A stretch of 64,000 nt of DNA from Alteromonas naphthalenivorans (GTDB lineage: Bacteria; Pseudomonadota; Gammaproteobacteria; Enterobacterales; Alteromonadaceae). The notes under the pieces were generated by a model. That model was not told where the DNA came from and made no database searches. It saw nothing but the letters and a program-made list of their open reading frames with translations. Location: NCBI RefSeq assembly GCF_000213655.1, contig NC_015554.1, positions 4,526,001 to 4,590,000 of the forward strand. Direction: 5' to 3'. Shown piece after piece: positions 5,418 through 49,933 of the stretch (position 1 is its first letter; each line of letters starts with the position of its first letter). A program made the translations under genes and the position numbers.

Positions 5418-8400
5418 ATGAGGATACTATCCTTCATATTCTTGTGTCTTACGGTGTTCGTCTCTTGGGCGGAACCCTGTCCTCCCATTTCTTCAACGGC
5501 TCGGGTGGCATTGGACGAAGACCAATTATTAATCAGTGTATTACGCCTTAACGGTCGTCCCCTATGGGATGGCTTTGACGTTTACCCTGTTGGTGAACGA
5601 TACCTAGTTCCCGCATCTCTGTTCGCTGACGCGCTTTCCCTAGACTGGGAAATATCAATGACTCAAGGAATTATACAATCTCAAGGTAATGACGATTTCT
5701 GCAGCTTCAACTATGCATTCAATCAAGCCTTGCCTACTCTTAGTAATACGCCGCCTGATACGTTTCTTTGGGCAGCCGATGATTTTGATATCTATATCGA
5801 TACACGCATGATTGCGGCTTTATTGCAGATTGAACAAACGTTTAATTATACGTTGCTTCAGCTCAACCTCACTGGCCGTCTTCCCCTAAATTCATCTTCA
5901 AACGTAAGCGCTGATAATCCGCAGCTACACTTTAAGCCTAGCGTAGTGCCTGTAAGTAAAGTGGTTGAAGATCAATATCAGTTCTTCACTTCGCCACTGG
6001 TTACCTACCGCCTATCAAAACAAGATAGTGCGACCAGCGATAATCGTTTTTCAGCCAATATAAACGCAGGGTTCGATTTCTTATATCATTCAGCAAACCT
6101 ACGTGTGAGCAGAGTTGATGACACCAGTGTCCATTACCTGCGATTTGGCAAAACCTTAAACGAAAACTACCAAGGTTCTGATAACGCCTTAGACAACTTT
6201 GCCTATGAGTTTGGCGATATACAGCTGCAAAGAGATGAACTGGTTACACGCTCTGGACAGTCACTCGGCTTGATTGTACATAATGGGGATACACGGCAGC
6301 GGCGCAGTTTTTCAAGCACTAGTATTGAAGAGTTCGTATTACCCAGCTGGCGGATACAACTTTTCAGAAATGGACAATTTATCGATGAGCAATTCAGTAA
6401 CGAGGAGAATAAGGTACTTTTCGAAGATATAGAAACCTTCTATGGCGCAAACTTATTCGAGTTGAAGCTATATGGGCCTGAAGGTCAGCAAGAGGTTCGA
6501 ACTAAAACCGTCAATGTGGGTAATAACCAGCTAAGGCAGGGAAAATTCGATTTTTTATTTGGGCTTACCGACAATCAATTTCGCTTACTGGATGGTCAAG
6601 TATCTACCACAGGAATAGGAAAAGCCACTGTCGCCCGGCTCGGCTATGGCCTCACGGATAGCGCAACATTATCTGCTAGCGTTCAACGTCTTTGGCTGGA
6701 AGATGAAATTGCCTCGTATGTCACAGCCGGTATCAATACCCAACTTTTCGGCTCGGCACTCAAATTTGAGGTGTCAGATCAGGATACGGGTGGTTATGGT
6801 ATGTTTTTAGGTTGGAACGGCAGGTTCAGCAATAACCTCAACTTGAACTTTTCTACCCGTTACTTTAACAATTTTTATAGCGATGCATACTCACAAGGCG
6901 AGGATATTAAGCACATTTCCTCGTTACGTTTGAACGGTAAAACTGAGTGGTTTGGGCGCTTTGGTTGGAACGCCAGTATGACCCACCGAGCCTATGAATT
7001 CGATGAACCCCAAAGTGCTTTTAACGTGAATTTAAATGACAACTTTCTGGGGGGGACTTTTGCTTCAGGGGTCAGCGTCTCTAACAATAGTAGCGATGCG
7101 GTCACTGGCCGATTGTATTACGCCAAAGACGTTAATGGATGGAACCTTTCTAGTGCTTGGAACTTTATTCCTTCAGATCGCTTTTCAACCGACAATTTCT
7201 ATGTGTCGATGCGGTGGCCACAATCGCTCACCCAACATCGAGAAACTCGCATACGTTATAGAAGAGATACTGACAATGTCTTGGAAATTAGACACCAACA
7301 CAACTGGCGCTTTGAGTCGTTAAATATTGGGTTGGCAGCCAGCGTAATGGAGGGCGGAGATTGGTCAGTAAACCTTTCCTTAACCGGCAATACGAATGTT
7401 AACCCGTATACGCAAAGTTTGAATTTTGAACGCTCAGCGGGGGCCACCGCTGGACGCATAGATGCATTTGCCTACCTAGACGATAATAGAAATTTACGTA
7501 AAGACCCTAACGAAATGCCTATAGAAGGCCTTACGTTTACGGGAAGCTCACTATGGCGTGATAAAAGTACCGATGCAAATGGAATGGTTAGGCTCAATAC
7601 TGGGGCCAGAGTACAAAACCTCACCTTAAAACCAGATTCGCTTCCTGACCCATATATGTTGCCAGCCTCTGGCAAAGTACAAATACTGACCCACGCCGGC
7701 GGGGTTAATAAAACTCAATTCCCAGTACATACCTTTAATGATGTTGAGGGCACTATTTACGTAATCGGTGATTCGTCTAGCCGTGGAGCGGGTTATGTTG
7801 ACATAGCACTTATCGATAATACTGAACAAATCGTCGTTAAAACGCGAACAGAGAGCGATGGCTATTTCTATGTTAACGCTATTCCCCCTGGTGAGTATCG
7901 CATTGAAATAGATAAGGATTACCTCATTCAGAAAGGCTTAACGATTCAAACCAGTACGCTTTCATTTACCGCCCTAGCACAAGGCGATTCTGTTTTTATA
8001 GATGATATTTTGCTTGCGCGAGAAGCATCTTCATCTAACGAAAACCTTGCATACCATTCTGCAACCGTTGAGCCTGTTTCAAACCCAGATACCCTCCACA
8101 AATATGAAATTCAAATTGGTATATTCAGGCATTCTCGCTCTATTTTTGAAGTGATGAAGCATTTACCCATAGCACCTGAGTCTATTCAATTTCATCGCAA
8201 TCATAGTGCAGCATTAACCTATGTAACGGTAGGCAGGTTTGACCTATTTAGCGAAGCCAAAATGATATTACAAAAACTCAATCAACACCCAGCCTTTAGT
8301 CACGCATTCATAAGCCCATCAGCGCGATATACCGGTGAGCATTGGCGATTAGAGTCTGTATTAGAGGATATACAAGAACTTATTCAGAGCTCACTTCGTC

Positions 8401-27001: not shown

Positions 27002-28291
27002 ATGAATATCTCGATTGTTCAGGCAATGATAGATGCCATCGATAAACCCGCTATTTTCATTAATCATCAGTATGTAATAGAGGCGGTTAACCAGCCTTAT
27101 CGCAATACCTACCCTGTGGATATTATTCCGGGTAAAAGTCAGTGTTTTAAGGTGTCACACGGTAATACTAAGCCTTGTGATCAATGCGGTGAAAGCTGCC
27201 CTATTCAGCAATGCAAAGACACCGGCCGGACTGCAAGTGTGGTTCACATTCACACCACAAAAAGCGGTCAAAGCTATTGTGATATTCTCATGCGGCCGGT
27301 TCACGACGCTAATGGCGACCTGCTTGGTTACTTAGAAATATTAGATAAACTCGCGTTTGCATCAAATTACCCTACCAAGGGTAAAATGATAGGTGAGTCT
27401 GCCGCCTTTAAAGCCATGCTGAATAAAATTAATCGGGCCGCAAAATCCGATATAGCCGTGTTGCTTCAAGGCGAAACGGGCACAGGTAAAGAGCTGGTTT
27501 CTCATGCCCTGCACACCAGTAGCCACCGCGCTGAAAAACCTTTTGTGGTAATAGAGTGTACGGGGTTAGCTGATACGCTTTTTGAATCGGAGTTATTCGG
27601 CTACGAGAAAGGCGCTTTTACTGGCGCGCAATCAAACAAAAAAGGATTAGTTGATGCCGCCCAAGGCGGAACGCTATTTTTTGATGAAATTGGCGATGTG
27701 CCTCTTACCATGCAGGTGAAGTTACTACGGTTGTTTGAAACTCAAACCTACCGCCCAGTTGGAAGCGTGCAAGTAAAAAAAGCCGATTTCCGTTTAGTAT
27801 GCGCTAGCCATAAAGACTTAAAATCCTTAGTGGAAAAAGGTGAATTCAGACAAGATCTTTACTACCGTATTGCAGGTTTCCCCATACACCTTCCGCCACT
27901 TCGTGAGCGTCAAAGCGACATTGAATTGCTGTGCAGCCACATGTTGCACGAACTGCCTTCGAAAAAGCGTTTACACAAATCCACTATTGAAATGCTAACC
28001 AACTATACCTACCCAGGTAACATTCGAGAGCTTAAAAATATTGTGGAACAAGCGTACTTGTTGGCAGATGAAAATGTAATTTACCCAACCGATTTGCCCG
28101 AGCTAGTTAGCGAACCCACTGTCCACACAAATGAAAGAGTCCTCACTCTGGAAGCTGCTGAAGCTAAGTACCTTGAAAAGGTAGTGGCAAAGCACGAAGG
28201 CAGTATAGACACTCTTGCCAATGCACTAGGTGTCAGCCAGCGGACGTTATATCGTAAGCTTCAATCGCTAGGGTTAAAGGTTAAGGGTTAA
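27002..28291 (+). CDS. Sigma-54-dependent transcriptional activator with Cys-rich PAS-like sensor domain
   Basis: 429 residues. An N-terminal PAS-like domain (about 1-115) has a Cys cluster at C48, C59, C62, C66, C71 and C93 with nearby H53, H82 and H84. The spacing ([14 protein letters not shown]) suggests an Fe-S, haem or thiol redox sensor. The central AAA+ domain (about 128-360) has Walker A GETGTGKE, the sigma-54 contact loop GAFTGA, and Walker [13 protein letters not shown] Fis-type HTH lies at the C-terminus (about 400-427, [17 protein letters not shown]). There is no receiver domain, so the sensor probably acts directly. It is divergent from the haem gene with its sigma-54 promoter and close to the cyd operon, which points to control of respiration-related genes. 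Confidence 0.9.
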
Positions 28292-44321: not shown

Positions 44322-45236
44322 TTACTCCACAAACTCTCGTGGTGGCACTCGCAAGCTACGTTCGCTAAACACGCTGTCTGGCAACGCAATATCGTACTGA
44401 ATACCGCGAAATTCCATTAAGGTATAACCCCCTGATGCTAAATCAGACACCTTGCTTCGTACTACCGTTGGGTACCCTTGAACTGTGTCTACTGATACCG
44501 CTTCAACTCGGCGGTAATTATCATCTCCTTTGAAAAAGTTGATTAGCGTGGGCAAGTAGGTTTGCTTGTCTATCTCTACGACATAATGAGAGAACTCTAC
44601 GCTACCGGCGCTTTTAGGCGTTGCGCGTAACACATAGTGGGTATCGGTGGTATTTTGCATAGTGAAGTTGTCTTCTGACACTGCACGGCCCGACACATCT
44701 TCATAAAAAAAGTGTGAACCGACAAACGAGGTGCGTTTATCGCCAGCGGCAATGCGCTTTACTAAATCAAGGGCCGGTAAATACAACCAACGATCATCAT
44801 CGGTATCAATGTTGGTGTGCTTTTCAACTCTAAACACCGTGCCTTTTACTTCGGTTGGGCGGCTGAAAAACACCAGCATTTTTTGGTCGCCGCTTTCAGT
44901 ACCTTCATTGTTTAGCACGTCTTTACGCAAAATCGTGAACTGACGCATTTGTTTACGCCCTTGACTATCTACGATGATCATTCGCGCCATTGATTTACCG
45001 TCATTGCCTGCGTAATAGGCGGCCTTTTCTGACTTCGCAATAATACTCGCCACGTCTTCTTGCGCATTCGCGGTAACGGGAGTCACCGCGGCAAAAGAAA
45101 AGCAAAGTAGCAACATACTCGTTAACCAAACACGAACACTCGAGTTGGAGGTTTTAGTGTTGATGTGAGTATTAGCGCGTGCCATACCAGAGAAAACGCG
45201 ATTAACATTTGTGATGTGAAGCATTGAATTACGCAT
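44322..45236 (-). CDS. LolA-like outer-membrane lipoprotein-sorting family protein
   Basis: 304 residues. A hydrophobic signal (about 34-58, ending TANAQ) is preceded by a long positively charged N-terminus. AAGGAG lies six bases before the ATG at 45236, overlapping the MMPL stop region, so this start is well supported. The body is the PF17131-type LolA-like half-barrel: VFFSRPTEVKGTVFRVEKH, DDRWLYLPALDLVKRIAAGDKRTSFVGSHFFYED (in parts). These proteins go with MMPL pumps and probably carry a lipid-like cargo across the periplasm. Confidence 0.85.
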   Translation of the reverse strand: MRNSMLHITNVNRVFSGMARANTHINTKTSNSSVRVWLTSMLLLCFSFAAVTPVTANAQEDVASIIAKSEKAAYYAGNDGKSMARMIIVDSQGRKQMRQFTILRKDVLNNEGTESGDQKMLVFFSRPTEVKGTVFRVEKHTNIDTDDDRWLYLPALDLVKRIAAGDKRTSFVGSHFFYEDVSGRAVSEDNFTMQNTTDTHYVLRATPKSAGSVEFSHYVVEIDKQTYLPTLINFFKGDDNYRRVEAVSVDTVQGYPTVVRSKVSDLASGGYTLMEFRGIQYDIALPDSVFSERSLRVPPREFVE

Positions 45237-45237
45237 A

Positions 45238-47823
45238 TTAAGCTCCTTTAAAAACCCAACGTTTTAAAAATACCATGGCCGCGGGTAAGACCAACAAAGT
45301 CACCAAGGCAGAAACCGCCATGATACTCGCCAAGAAAACACCCACCGTTATGTAAGGCACTAACGGCGCTAGCAGTAAAGGGGTGAAGCCCAGTGCTATC
45401 ACCAACGCATTTCGCGTTATTGCACTGGCAGGCTCATCGAACATAGCGTCTAAGGTGTCTGGCACACTACCCGTTTCCTTATAGATTTCACGCGCCCTAG
45501 CAAGGAAGTGAATAGCGAAATCCACAGATAACCCCAAGGTAAGCGCCGAAAGTACAGCAATAGGCATGTCGTAGTCTTTACCCACAATGCCAATAAGCCC
45601 GTAAATAAAGGTAATCGTGATGGTAAGGGGAAGCATAGCGAGCACGCCAAAAACTAAAGAACGGAACAGTAGTACCATCATCACAAATACAATGACAAAG
45701 GCGCTAAGCAAGCTTTCCAACATGCCTGTTACCATATTTTCTTGCCACACCACATTTAAGTAGGCTTTACCTGCCCAGTCGTAGCTTAGCCCTTCTGGTA
45801 GTGGGTTATTAGCAAAGTAATCTTCAACAAGCGAAATGACATTCGTCATATCTTGGTTGTCACCGCTGGTTAGCTGTAGCCAAATCAGCGTTTGGCGATA
45901 ATCCGGCGTGACAAAATGCCACAGGTCTTGAGGACGGTGGGAAGACTGATATTGCATTAGGGTTTGTGCCACGCCTCGGTTGTTGGCGGGCAATGCGTAG
46001 TCTACCTCATTACCTGAGCGCAACTCACGATTCACCACTTTGACTACATCAACCAAAGACTGTGATTTACCAATTAAAGGTTGAGTATCTAGGTACGCTT
46101 GTAACTTCTCAATATGCGCAAGTACTGCGGGCTGTTGGAAGGTATTGGCATTCCCATTCGCGGCATCAACGACTTGCAATAAGTTGTCTAACGCGGTTAG
46201 TTCATCATCGTCGAGATTGCTAAATAGCGCATCATCAATACGCATGGCAAGTTCCGACATTTTGTTAGCATCGTCGCTCTGGTTTATCGACACCTGAGTT
46301 TGCTCAACCCATTCATCTAAACTTGATGGTAAATTTGCCTCATTTAATACCTTGATAGCATCAATGCTTTTATTGGTATCTGTAATGACCAAATAAGCAT
46401 TGTACGTGCCCGCAAACTCTGCATTTAAGGCCCTGTCTGCCACCCTTATTTCATGGTCTTGTTTAAACCAACGCACAGGGTTGTCGTTGATATTAATTTG
46501 CGTAATTCCCCACGCTGATACTAGGGTAATTGCACCAAATACAGCAATAATCAGCGCTCTGTGGTTTAGCGCGATGTAGCGTAGTTTAGTAACGGTACGT
46601 TTTAGTAACGTGGTACTGCCTTCATTATTATCTGCTTCTTCATTTTGATGTAGCGCGACTTGAAGTTTGCTTAATGCCGCGGGCGACATACGGGAAATAT
46701 AAGCAGGGATAAACGTAAGAGTAATCAAAAATGCCAATAAAATGCCAAAGCCAATATAAGCACCAAAGATCTGCACGGGCGGTATAGGGGTTAGCATTAA
46801 AGAGAAAAAGCCTGCTGATGAAGTGAGTGAGGTAAACAGCATGGGCTTAAACAGGTGCTCAACCACGTGAGTGATCACCTTACCTGCATTTTCACCTGGC
46901 TTACAACGGTCGGAAAATTCAGACAATATGTGTACTGAGTCGACTACCGCGATTGGCATGAGAAAAATAGCAATCATGGATGACATAATGTGCACAGTGA
47001 ATCCCATGCCAATGAGAGCACCCATGGTAATGATAACTGTAGCCATCGCCACTATCATGGGCGCAGTAATAAGCGACCAATTTCTGAAAAATAAGAACAG
47101 AAGAATAAAAATCATGGCACCAGCCGCAGGTGCAGCGATAGCCATTTGCACAAACATTTCTACCCCAAACTGATCTTCAGCAACAGGTAAGCCTGTGATG
47201 TGCCATTGGCCTGCCGTGTCAACATTCGTTAAATAAGCGCGAATATCTTGGGCAATGCGATAACTTTCATTCTTGTCGGCAATAGGGATATAAATAGCAG
47301 CAGCGTTACCTGAAGACGCAGCCAGCGTGTCGTACAGTAACGGCAGCCTTTCGATAGACTTTTGTAGTTCAGCACTTGCGCTTGCGGTTTCAGGTGGGCT
47401 GGCCATTAACCATGAAAACTCAAGACTCCCGTCACTACCTTGCTTAATGTTGTCTACTGTTGAAAACGACATGACGTCTTGGCTAATAACACCCTCTATA
47501 GCCAGTACATGGTCAGTCACTTGGTGAATGGCTGCTAAGGCGTCTGGCGTGTATATGCCGCTTATGGCCTCATCGCTTTTGGCACCCTTTTCCGGCACCA
47601 CCAAACCAACCACTATCGCATCGTGCATGGAAAAGGTTTGCTTTACCTCATTATGAAAGGTACGAGCACGATGAGATTCCGCCAACATGTTTTCAGGATC
47701 GGTATCAATCTGAATTAACCGCATTTGAAAAGCGGCAAATGCCGTTATCACGGCGAGAAAAAAATAAACCCATCGCCCTTTGTGCGTGCTTACATGCAAA
47801 AGCATATCAATTGCTAATTTCAT
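45238..47823 (-). CDS. MMPL/RND-family inner-membrane transporter
   Basis: 861 residues with two RND-type halves, each with one TM helix, a large periplasmic domain and a five-helix bundle. TMs 2-6 include FRNWSLITAPMIVAMATVII (second half starts near 430), and SALTLGLSVDFAIHFLARA carries the acidic residue of the proton relay. It resembles hopanoid/lipid transporters (HpnN-like) rather than the long AcrB. Stop and start are coupled to the LolA-like gene. The operon is probably a lipid-trafficking machine of the outer membrane. Confidence 0.88.
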   Translation of the reverse strand: MKLAIDMLLHVSTHKGRWVYFFLAVITAFAAFQMRLIQIDTDPENMLAESHRARTFHNEVKQTFSMHDAIVVGLVVPEKGAKSDEAISGIYTPDALAAIHQVTDHVLAIEGVISQDVMSFSTVDNIKQGSDGSLEFSWLMASPPETASASAELQKSIERLPLLYDTLAASSGNAAAIYIPIADKNESYRIAQDIRAYLTNVDTAGQWHITGLPVAEDQFGVEMFVQMAIAAPAAGAMIFILLFLFFRNWSLITAPMIVAMATVIITMGALIGMGFTVHIMSSMIAIFLMPIAVVDSVHILSEFSDRCKPGENAGKVITHVVEHLFKPMLFTSLTSSAGFFSLMLTPIPPVQIFGAYIGFGILLAFLITLTFIPAYISRMSPAALSKLQVALHQNEEADNNEGSTTLLKRTVTKLRYIALNHRALIIAVFGAITLVSAWGITQININDNPVRWFKQDHEIRVADRALNAEFAGTYNAYLVITDTNKSIDAIKVLNEANLPSSLDEWVEQTQVSINQSDDANKMSELAMRIDDALFSNLDDDELTALDNLLQVVDAANGNANTFQQPAVLAHIEKLQAYLDTQPLIGKSQSLVDVVKVVNRELRSGNEVDYALPANNRGVAQTLMQYQSSHRPQDLWHFVTPDYRQTLIWLQLTSGDNQDMTNVISLVEDYFANNPLPEGLSYDWAGKAYLNVVWQENMVTGMLESLLSAFVIVFVMMVLLFRSLVFGVLAMLPLTITITFIYGLIGIVGKDYDMPIAVLSALTLGLSVDFAIHFLARAREIYKETGSVPDTLDAMFDEPASAITRNALVIALGFTPLLLAPLVPYITVGVFLASIMAVSALVTLLVLPAAMVFLKRWVFKGA

Positions 47824-47988
47824 ATCAAAAACCTTAATATATTAGATTTTTATTATATTATATATTGAACAGTAAACAAGCATATTTTCAAGCAAGGTAA
47901 CACTGATTGTTATTGTGTATGTGCATTCGGTAAGAAACGACACGACAGTAGGAAAAAATTTCCCACCCTTTTTTTTAAACATACGCCC

Positions 47989-48092
47989 AATTAATGCCAA
48001 ACGTTTTAAATTTAGAATAAAATAGATTTATATCAATAATTTACTATTATATTTAAACGACGCTAAATTTTGGCACAAGTTTGGCATTAATT
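47989..48092. repeat. 14-bp perfect inverted repeat flanking the RNA promoter
   Basis: AATTAATGCCAAAC (47989-48002) is the exact reverse complement of GTTTGGCATTAATT (48079-48092). Near matches extend outward from each arm toward CTAAATTT. It may be regulator half-sites or an old inverted duplication. Confidence 0.8.
48070..48086 (+). promoter_or_regulatory. Candidate promoter of the CsrB-like RNA (sigma-54 or sigma-70)
   Basis: TTGGCACAAGTTTGGCA has GG-N10-GC spacing and one mismatch to TGGCAC-N5-TTGCA, which fits a sigma-54 promoter with transcription start near 48097. A sigma-70 reading is also possible: TTGGCA (48070-48075), a 16-base spacer, then TAGACT (48092-48097). Confidence 0.5.
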
Positions 48093-48688
48093 AGACTAAC
48101 GGATAACAACAGACGTAAACATGATGCTAGGAAGGCATACCGTTACCACGAAGGTAACCATGACATTACAGACTTTATCTGCGCAGGCTGACAACATTGG
48201 ACGTAAAAGGAAATTCGTCGGCCAGGGATGCAAGGATTGATAGCAAGGTTAACGTCGCTCTGTTGTTTATCGGAAAGTTAAATACGTTTAACGCCAACAC
48301 GGATGTTGAAAAAGGATGCGTCTTGATGACGAGCAAGGTTGACATTGATGTCGACAAAGCAATCACCACGGAGTGAGTTGATTTGCTTAAGGAAGTTGTT
48401 GACGTGAATGACCGATTATCTGTTTTTGCGCCAGTTGAGTGTGATGGCGACTTGGATTAAGTCGTAAAGGCCTGCAGGATGCAGAGTAGCTAGCGCTTTC
48501 ATCGCGATTACTACTGGATGCCCACATCACTGGCACAGACATTGATGTCCATGTGCAACAAAGGATTGTAACTTATTTGGCTCTGTTGACCCGGCATTAC
48601 GCCTTCAGCAATAGCCATATCGAGGAACACTAGTAATGTCATCGATATTATTAGTGTGCTGTCACCCGACAGCATGCCTCTCCCCTCT

Positions 48689-48708
48689 AAGGCCCTTCCC
48701 GGCCTTTT
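48689..48708 (+). terminator. First terminator of the CsrB-like RNA
   Basis: AAGGCC and GGCCTT pair around CTTCCC, followed by four T and AT-rich sequence. Confidence 0.7.
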
Positions 48709-48725
48709 ATATACCTCTGATTTTA

Positions 48726-48750
48726 GCCCGCCTTTGGCGGGCATTTTTTT
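48726..48750 (+). terminator. Second, strong terminator of the CsrB-like RNA
   Basis: GCCCGCC and GGCGGGC pair around TTT, followed by A and seven T. Confidence 0.92.
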
Positions 48751-49153
48751 GCCTGTCAGTTTATATTTTTACCTTTTATTTTAGGGTCTTACCTTTATTT
48801 CAAACCACTAAACCTATGATAAAAGAGGCTCTGGAAATAAATATTTTAAAAACTTTTTATTTATTTTTATATTTTGCTGAACTTTTCTTTATTTCACCGC
48901 TCTTACTAATACATGGAGTCATTTAGTGTGTTGGCTTTGTGAAGTGTAAATGTGTTTTCCAAGTTATGTTGTGTTTTTCTTAAGGGGCTCTTTAGCCCCT
49001 TTCTTTTTGCCTATAATAAATATCCTCTCTTTCGTAATACGGCCTACTTTTCTAAAAACCAGAATTATTAGCTAGATTTCATCCCACTCTTAGAAATGGA
49101 AATGAGAACTATTATCAAATAAGCTATGCCCACTGTCGTATTTGGAGAAAATC
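48751..49153. other. Region between the RNA terminators and the siderophore-interacting protein
   Basis: About 400 bases, AT-rich around 48760-48910, without a gene. A short AGGGGCTC/AGCCCCT stem near 48980-49000 could be a weak terminator. The Fur box and promoter of the next gene lie at the right end. Confidence 0.45.
49098..49116 (+). promoter_or_regulatory. Fur box upstream of the siderophore-interacting protein
   Basis: The 19-bp window matches GATAATGATAATCATTATC at about 14 positions (core AATGAGAACTATTATC). It lies about 40 bases before the ATG, as expected for an iron-repressed promoter. Confidence 0.6.
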
Positions 49154-49933
49154 ATGTCTAAACCCGCACCTCGTGTTGTTGAAGTTATCGAGTCTTTCCG
49201 TATAACACCAAACATGCAACGTATTGTCCTTGGCGGCGCTACATTAGAAGACTTCCCAGAAACTCGCCCTGGCGCTTACGTTAAGTTACTTTTTGATTTA
49301 AATGGTGACCCTGTCGTTCAGCCTGCCAAAGATAAACCCGTTGCTATGCGTACCTACACGATAAACAGCTTCGATAGACAAAAAGCACAAATGTCCATTG
49401 ATATGGTAGTGCATGCAAAAGATGGAGTAACTGGCCCCGCCGCCGCATGGGCGCTAAGCGCAAAAGAAGGTGACAAGCTAACTATTGCAGGCCCTGGTAG
49501 CAGTAAAGCGTTAGCAGAGAATTATGACTGGGTACTTTTCGCAGGCGACATGACAGCGCTGCCCAGTATTAGAAACTATTTACAAGCACTTCCTAGCCAT
49601 ACTAAAGGCATTGCAGTTATAGCTATTGAACATGAAACCGATGCTACCACGCTAGAAAAGCCTGAAGGCGTATCGATTAAGTGGGTATCTAAAAAAGAAG
49701 CAACATTGTCTGACGCCTTGCAGCGTATTGACTGGCAACAAGGAACCCCTGCTGTATGGGTTGCCTGTGAATTTTCTCAAATGAGAAAAATTCGTTCGTG
49801 GCTTAAGGACGAAAAACAGGTGCCCCACAGCCAAGTGTACATTAGCAGCTATTGGCGTGAAGGGCGCAGTGAAGACCAGCATAAGATAGATAAGCGTCAA
49901 GATGTTGAAGCCTTTGCGAAGCAACTTGCTTAA
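49154..49933 (+). CDS. Siderophore-interacting protein (FAD-dependent ferric-siderophore reductase, ViuB-like)
   Basis: 259 residues from the ATG at 49154, with GGAG seven bases upstream; an in-frame TTG at 49142 would overlap that site. It has the NAD(P)H:flavin reductase layout. RTYTI (MRTYTINSF) is the FAD-binding RxY(S/T) motif, DMVVHAKDGVTGPAAAWA the phosphate-binding turn, and VLFAGDMTALPSIRNYL the ViuB/YqjH signature. The end, SSYWREGRSEDQHKID, is typical. Family members reduce ferric siderophores in the cytoplasm to release iron. A Fur box precedes it. Confidence 0.93.
   Translation: MSKPAPRVVEVIESFRITPNMQRIVLGGATLEDFPETRPGAYVKLLFDLNGDPVVQPAKDKPVAMRTYTINSFDRQKAQMSIDMVVHAKDGVTGPAAAWALSAKEGDKLTIAGPGSSKALAENYDWVLFAGDMTALPSIRNYLQALPSHTKGIAVIAIEHETDATTLEKPEGVSIKWVSKKEATLSDALQRIDWQQGTPAVWVACEFSQMRKIRSWLKDEKQVPHSQVYISSYWREGRSEDQHKIDKRQDVEAFAKQLA

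Follow-up and report, generated by a model that had tools for sequence, protein, structure and literature searches.

A sigma-54-type transcription unit of Alteromonas with an RNA probably derived from the mRNA of a BON-domain protein, and GGA hairpins that may bind CsrA

On the chromosome of Alteromonas naphthalenivorans, a run of hairpins with GGA in the loop fills a gene-free region of some 650 nt. An earlier note, made from the sequence alone, read this stretch as a large CsrB/RsmZ-like RNA that titrates CsrA. What kind of RNA is it, and what did it come from? The window analyzed here is the whole stretch of 64,000 nt that contains the locus (contig NC_015554.1, positions 4,526,001 to 4,590,000, forward strand), and its features are collected in Table 1. 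On present evidence, the observation was mostly right, while the likeness to CsrB/RsmZ is only partial and the assignment to that family does not hold; the locus appears to be an mRNA-derived RNA under selection.

Table 1. Features of the RNA locus, in window positions.
Feature	Position	Strand	Basis
Upstream activator-like site, degenerate TGT-N12-ACA dyad ATTCGGTAAGAAACGACA	47925..47942	+	
Second recurring upstream box GTAGGAAAAAATTTCCCAC	47948..47966	+	by eye in upstream sequences
Sigma-54-type -24/-12 promoter TTGGCACAAGTTTGGCA (GG-N10-GC); inferred start ~48096	48070..48086	+	
Inferred transcript, about 655 nt	48096..48750	+	promoter spacing and terminator
Hairpin A, AGGA in loop	48124..48138	+	strict-rule hairpin; clade comparison
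Remnant of BON-domain protein gene, 5 stops	48206..48670	+	protein alignment
GGA-loop hairpin CAACACGGATGTTG	48295..48308	+	strict-rule hairpin
GGA-loop hairpin	48363..48376	+	strict-rule hairpin
GGA-loop hairpin, 7 bp	48447..48465	+	strict-rule hairpin
GGA-loop hairpin CTGCAGGATGCAG	48472..48484	+	strict-rule hairpin
GGA-loop hairpin around ACAAAGGATTGT	48554..48570	+	strict-rule hairpin; clade comparison
Conserved 3' module, 97 nt, covariance model R2	48654..48750	+	strong match in 45/59 genus genomes
Module hairpin H1 (end of old reading frame)	48658..48673	+	covariation
C-rich linker CCTCTCCCCTC, candidate pairing region	48677..48687	+	several invariant alignment columns; function inferred
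Module hairpin H2	48689..48706	+	alignment, covariation
Linker ACCTCTGAT, candidate pairing region	48713..48721	+	mostly invariant alignment columns; function inferred
Intrinsic terminator with T-run	48726..48750	+	terminator scoring, covariation

Between 48097 and 48750, GGA occurs 16 times on the plus strand versus 3 times on the minus strand, which is the bias that had been reported. Among 654-base stretches stepped by 50, the largest strand difference (+15) is found at 48001, although +14 occurs at 6251. As a bare triplet, GGA is only modestly enriched, with at least 16 copies in 79 of 2000 mononucleotide shuffles, and the GGA count of the transcript has a dinucleotide-shuffle p of 0.008 (500 shuffles). 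By a strict rule, which asks for a perfect stem of 4 or more pairs, allows a single G-U pair and limits the loop to 10 nt, 6 of the 16 GGAs sit in an apical loop; shuffles average 2.2, with a maximum of 5, and none of 200 reaches 6. Hence, the "at least seven" such hairpins of the earlier note were slightly too many, but the excess over chance is real. The predicted fold of the RNA (-213.2 kcal/mol) is stabler than those of shuffled sequences (z -3.7, 20 shuffles).

Many GGA motifs, a large part of them in hairpin loops, are what one finds in CsrB, CsrC and RsmX-Z, and the window RNA further resembles these sponges in being intergenic and in ending at a terminator. The genome also carries a single copy of csrA. 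Nevertheless, with the Rfam models run over the window, no family reached its gathering score, and there was no Csr/Rsm family among 8 permissive hits in 47500-49500. The best of these is suhB/mmgR (RF00519), at 31.4 bits versus a gathering cut-off of 41; suhB/mmgR sRNAs have a C-rich linker and a terminator in common with the window RNA, and the match covers the last two hairpins only. For GlmY/GlmZ, Rfam gave no match at either the gathering or the permissive threshold. A GacA/UvrY-type box was sought by its known consensus and rejected for the locus: TGTAAG-N6/7-CTTACA occurs at none of the 45 loci compared, and TGTA-N10-TACA at 3 of 45, the window not being one of them. The likeness to CsrB/RsmZ stands for the hairpins and the presence of csrA, but is contradicted by the lack of an Rfam CsrB/Rsm match, the lack of such a box, and the descent from an mRNA described below. 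Unlike CsrB-type sponges, the window RNA also has sigma-54/GlrR-type signals and a strongly conserved 3' module.

A better candidate lies elsewhere in the same genome. At L031 (G000:C1:3109072-3109273 and surroundings), the minus strand from about 1900 down to 1240 holds 46 GGA versus 2 TCC in 661 nt, compared with 16 GGA in 658 nt for the window RNA. This intergenic stretch contains 16 strict GGA hairpins, matches CsrB weakly (25.7 bits where the cut-off is 71), and is preceded by a GacA-box-like TGTA-N10-TACA. In minimum-energy folds, 35 of its 46 GGAs are mostly unpaired versus 8 of 16 in the window RNA. L031 is thus the probable CsrB-type RNA of this genome. Sponges of this kind are on record in related bacteria: PMC5864184 presents Aln1a-c of A. 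macleodii Te101 as CsrA-sequestering sRNAs, and PMC11882849 presents Pf1-3 as CsrB/Rsm-type sponges of Pseudoalteromonas.

Across relatives, the most durable part of the locus is its 3' end. A DNA search matched the locus in 29 of 60 genomes, its own included, of which the two weakest (G022, G052) are not counted. An exact pattern taken from the 3' end occurs in 31 of 59 genus genomes and the reversed pattern in none, and a covariance model of the 3' end finds 45 of 59 at E <=4.3e-10; 6 more genus genomes, with weak module matches only, are left uncounted. When 395 genomes of the family were searched with the model (10 candidates scored each, stricter filters), E < 1e-12 was reached in 28 genomes, all from the same genus; other genera gave 1.2e-5 at best, and such matches are not counted. 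A pattern search returned 26 stretches, 18 of them from Alteromonas, Salinimonas or Aestuariibacter (one strain); the other 8 are unrelated and were treated as chance.

In an alignment of 29 module sequences, 95.7% of the cells in paired columns are paired, and there are 35 double-change cells versus 12.1 in shuffles (0 of 500 as high); sliding the pairing partners leaves 1-9. Pairs changed on both sides are a weaker signal (7 versus 4.5 in shuffles, 31/500), and further pair types do not exceed shuffles in this alignment (17 versus 15.9, 150/500). Terminator scoring predicts one terminator at 48726-48742 plus T-run, with an overlapping second prediction at 48734-48759. Of the two terminators proposed for the region, one is therefore upheld; no T-run follows the conserved hairpin at 48689-48706 that precedes it. 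A terminator with a U-run combined with conserved linkers is the build of Hfq-type sRNAs, and it is somewhat more probable than not that the C-rich linkers pair with target mRNAs. The module is better conserved than the GGA body and is kept where that body is gone.

The body betrays the origin of the RNA. Window positions 48206-48670 can be aligned with a BON-domain protein (E 1.1e-22) but are interrupted by 5 stops, so that the region is indeed gene-free today but consists largely of a broken BON-domain gene. In 8 genomes, an open BON frame stands between the same promoter and module: five loci have ORFs of 186-191 aa, and G069, G021 and G072 have stop-free BON matches. The intact orthologue P0001 (the version of G026) contains two BON stretches (Pfam PF04972, 117.6 bits). 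Six genomes, the window's own and five closely related ones, have a frame crossed by 3-10 stops. Another 17 species, with 18 loci because the RNA is duplicated in G001, have a transcript of about 490-504 nt, and a BON protein search finds no match at these loci. In 8 more species it has shrunk to 189-311 nt, and the short forms of G010 and G062 retain, by eye, remnants of the end of the BON gene. The RNA is, with high confidence, a functional one derived from an mRNA. Its large size, nearly twice the usual and earlier taken as a hint that it may bind more CsrA, is explained by this ancestry instead of by a doubled sponge.

A tree of one gene, gyrB, covers 52 of the 59 genus genomes; the 7 left out, G005 included, lack a strong module match. 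G006 enters the module count and the tree (as a short form, by eye) and is outside the upstream, length and GGA counts. The tree groups 27 genomes in one clade: the six of the window, G024, G028, 18 further ORF-less species, and G073, which has no RNA. None of the 27 has an intact ORF, and 26 have kept the RNA. Over the genus, the intact state must have changed 5 times and the short state 6 times to fit the well-supported branches; the tree does not give the direction of each change, and the BON remnants speak for loss. The frame was probably lost in several lineages and, for the lineage of the window, in the ancestor of the clade of 27.

At the 5' end, the sigma-54-type element TTGGCACAAGTTTGGCA lies directly upstream of 48097, where the earlier note had placed the start of the RNA. 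In each relative, the best sigma-54-type element upstream of the 3' module was sought and scored against the consensus. The score is at least 10 at 44 of 45 loci and 9 in G034, against a base rate of 9.3% per 560 nt of this DNA, and a GG-N10-GC element thus occupies a conserved position, as in a sigma-54-dependent RNA gene. Together, promoter and module imply transcripts of 189 to 673 nt across loci. Control of this transcription unit of Alteromonas (sensu GTDB) by sigma-54 is very likely. Inverted copies AATTAATGCCAAAC / GTTTGGCATTAATT at 47989-48002 and 48079-48092 flank an AT-rich stretch before the promoter, the second copy overlapping it. Directly upstream of the locus, at 44322-47823 on the minus strand, are genes for a LolA-like outer-membrane lipoprotein-sorting protein and an MMPL-family exporter; this neighbor appears to be different in G080 (39% identity there).

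Farther upstream, a perfect TGT-N12-ACA dyad occurs between -220 and -60 at 37 of 45 loci, with 2.1 expected from shuffles. PMC6075780 gives this as the consensus for QseF (GlrR) at glmY, and PMC8745638 also gives the site as TGTCN10GACA. The window is among the 8 loci without a perfect dyad and has a degenerate copy; hence, the GlrR/QseF-type site is evident for the set of 45 loci and not for the window alone. When the window's own genome was searched for the upstream site, 9 places were found versus 7 for the reversed control, which is the chance level. A sigma-54-like element of score 12 lies downstream of such a place at this locus only, the next best (score 10) being upstream of its site, so that the search yields no regulon in this genome.

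The GlrR-like protein of the window's genome scores 677 bits with GlrR as its best family, yet falls under the curated cut-off. Of the 59 genus genomes, 57 have a GlrR match of 538 bits or more, and in all 59 the score stays below the NCBIfam cut-off of 763. By eye, a short lipoprotein-like ORF and a kinase-like ORF lie directly upstream of glrR in Alteromonas; the lipoprotein-like ORF has no Pfam match. Every one of the 45 genomes with the RNA is among these 57, the match in G034 being partial. The two genomes without such a match, G005 (absent from the gyrB tree) and G073, are also without the RNA; within the clade of 27, no genome other than G073 lacks it. Because 12 genus genomes have GlrR and no RNA, this association is weak by itself (Fisher P 0.053). 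With the dyad, it suggests with moderate confidence that GlrR/QseF switches the locus on. PrsR (L132) could be the activator instead; of the genome's 11 strong sigma-54 activators, 8 were classified. A sigma-54 activator ATPase domain (PF00158) is also encoded in the window itself, at 27386-27889, within a 429-aa protein (L136) whose family matches begin after residue 110.

The body of the RNA has changed less than its surroundings. Between the ORF-less loci L003 (G027) and L011 (G018), identity is 42% at fourfold sites of gyrB, 48% in the spacer, 80% in the RNA body and 92% in the module. Between the window's genome (G000) and G076, G077 or G082, the body is 95% identical without gaps, versus 73-76% at gyrB fourfold sites; the adjacent spacer is 71-73%, the downstream flank 80-81%, and a more distant upstream stretch, partly coding, 89-90% identical. 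Of the 15 pairs within the window's six-genome clade, 14 are more alike in the body than at gyrB fourfold sites; only for G080-G082 is the order reversed (85% versus 88%). Toward the two about-490-504-nt loci compared, body identity is 52-53%, near background. On present evidence, these comparisons argue that the locus is under selection as an RNA and is more than a decaying gene.

Within the clade, this conservation includes the GGA motifs, although the comparisons are not independent of phylogeny. In an alignment of 17 ORF-less loci, invariance is seen for 7 of 14 GGA triplets, compared with 67 of 396 triplets of any kind (P 0.0038); the window's clade gives 13 of 16 versus 297 of 553 (P 0.021). 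AGGA is 2.6 times as dense in 25 ORF-less clade loci as in 8 intact loci (1.58 versus 0.60 per 100 nt; short G034 and the second copy of G001 left out), and the GGA densities of the same sets are 3.20 and 2.67 (P 0.056). Four GGA hairpins, chosen on the same alignment on which they were scored, show 15 double-change cells versus 4.3 in shuffles (0/500) and, as a weaker signal, 5 pairs changed on both sides versus 2.0 (9/500); their further pair types are not above shuffles (12 versus 13.1, 500/500). The AGGA-loop hairpin A at the 5' end is present at 26 of 27 clade loci, in another register in G001 and absent from G034, and its stem varies from AUGCU/GGCAU to AGCC/GGCU and AGCU/AGCU.

Taken one by one, the window and G024 have significantly more GGA hairpins than their shuffles (0/200 each); four about-490-504-nt loci (p 0.08-0.26), G028 (0.085) and two coding loci (p 0.38 and 0.60) are not above theirs. 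Intact coding orthologues carry 8-19 GGAs and short ones 1-6, and G034, which belongs to the window's clade, has lost the GGA hairpins. GGA hairpins are conserved and covary in the window's clade, but the short forms have few or no GGAs and G034 has no such hairpins. With 1-6 GGAs in short ORF-less forms, the locus as a whole cannot have CsrA binding as its function; such binding, if real, is a trait added in this clade. That CsrA binds the window form of the RNA has, in our estimate, an even chance of being correct.

We favor the following account, with moderate confidence in the whole: an RNA descended from an mRNA, with a pairing module at its 3' end and, in the window's clade, a CsrA-binding body. 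In the ancestor, a sigma-54-type promoter, probably switched by GlrR/QseF, would have driven an mRNA whose product had two BON domains and a start resembling a signal peptide; at its 3' end, this mRNA would have had a small structured module in which C-rich stretches were exposed. Several lineages would then have lost the reading frame but retained promoter and module. An envelope signal may now act through GlrR and sigma-54 to produce the RNA, whose module would pair with target mRNAs via the C-rich linkers. In the window's clade, the freed 5' body would have become a set of AGGA/GGA hairpins that bind and titrate CsrA, or else CsrA may act on the RNA.

How much of the function lies in the body, and how much in the module, is where the main rival explanations part. 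If the RNA were purely a sponge of the CsrB/RsmZ type, the whole of it would titrate CsrA. This agrees with the strand bias, the above-chance GGA-loop hairpins, and their covariation and preferential conservation in the clade, and a total of 16 GGAs falls between the 14 of E. coli CsrC and the 22 of CsrB reported in PMC11882849. It is nonetheless improbable, given that Rfam and the search for a common GacA/UvrY-type box found nothing, that the RNA began as an mRNA, that its module is better conserved than the GGA body and outlasts it, that the minimum-energy fold leaves only half of the GGAs unpaired, and that the denser L031 exists elsewhere in the genome. The converse reading, in which a GlrR/sigma-54-controlled sRNA acts by base pairing through the 3' module only and the GGAs are idle leftovers of BON coding sequence, is a possibility to be taken seriously but rather doubtful. 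The module is present in 45 of 59 genomes whatever the body, the short forms are little else, and the intact coding loci already have their 8-19 GGAs; idle leftovers, however, would not be expected to become denser in AGGA after ORF loss, to be preferentially invariant as triplets, to form covarying hairpins, or to sit in a body that is conserved at ORF-less loci.

Two further readings were weighed. A decaying pseudogene with leftover promoter and terminator and no present function would account for the 5 stops in the BON frame and for the 1 of 15 close pairs without excess conservation. It is disfavored, to the point of having very little probability left, by body identities of 80% versus 42% at fourfold sites (L003-L011) and of 95% versus 73-76% (G000 with G076, G077, G082), by the covarying hairpins, and by the keeping of the RNA in 26 of 27 sampled species of the clade. 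It is also quite unlikely that the locus still encodes one or more small proteins, either a single BON domain or a short 3'-end peptide. Residual frames of 59 and 64 aa at L001 and L002 and a 112-aa ORF in G013 would suit the former, and a 27-codon ATG frame over the module, with GAGGA 8-9 nt before the ATG, at 12 of 18 about-490-504-nt loci would suit the latter. Yet the interruptions of the old frame differ between close relatives (10 stops in G080), and the changes between G000 and G080 fall at all of its codon positions (8, 10 and 16 at positions 1, 2 and 3). The 27-codon frame, for its part, is absent from 6 of the 18 loci and, in the window's clade, lacks an ATG in G032 and overruns the transcript end in the other five.

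This RNA shares features with several known systems. mRNA 3' UTR-derived sRNAs and the dual-function RNAs SgrS/SgrT and RNAIII likewise have a structured, terminator-ending module at the end of an mRNA; here, unlike in those cases, several lineages have lost a frame of ~186-191 codons but kept promoter and module. CrcZ and CrcY of Pseudomonas are sigma-54-dependent RNAs that titrate a protein, as is proposed here, through A-rich motifs and under a different activator. GlmY is much shorter than the window form; its locus adjoins glrR, unlike that of the window RNA, which moreover is mRNA-derived. In E. coli, GlmY is QseF/GlrR- and sigma-54-dependent according to PMC6075780, and a sigma-54-type promoter together with TGT-N12-ACA sites is common to both RNAs. 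In the literature searched, we found no description of this locus, which the supplement of PMC5864184 (127 chromosomal sRNAs), lying outside that search, may list, and no description of a sigma-54/GlrR input into the Csr network in Alteromonas.

The broadest form of the proposal is that an mRNA turned several times independently into a regulatory RNA by loss of its frame and in one clade was rebuilt as a CsrA sponge, linking GlrR/sigma-54 to Csr; we advance this tentatively, as it is more likely to fail in some part than to hold in full. If true, an envelope-stress regulator (GlrR, with sigma-54) would have gained a direct line into the global Csr system, and the locus would be an unusually clear case of a message becoming a regulator, a bacterial counterpart of long non-coding RNAs derived from protein genes. 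By this reading, sigma-54 and GlrR may provide an input to the Csr network of marine bacteria. Since one genus holds a living series of intact mRNA, broken gene and pure RNA, with promoter and 3' module constant, the origin of regulatory RNAs from messages becomes directly testable.

Relatives of both the gene and the module occur elsewhere in these genomes. Most genus genomes have a second BON protein, with an identity of about 57%, so that the function of the BON protein may not be lost with the frame. The window's genome has a paralogous BON-domain gene at G000:C1:1327633-1328166 (L100), where there is no strong match to the 3' module. The two copies of the RNA locus in G001, L010 and L030 (G001:C4:3098073 and 3121747), are ~24 kb apart, with nearly identical 3' ends and a promoter-like element at each. 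Many genus genomes also have one weak second match to model R2 (30-34 bits; for example, G018:C1:15909, G004:C1:15334 and G061:C179:52047), often some 8-16 kb from gyrB, which may be a related terminator or RNA.
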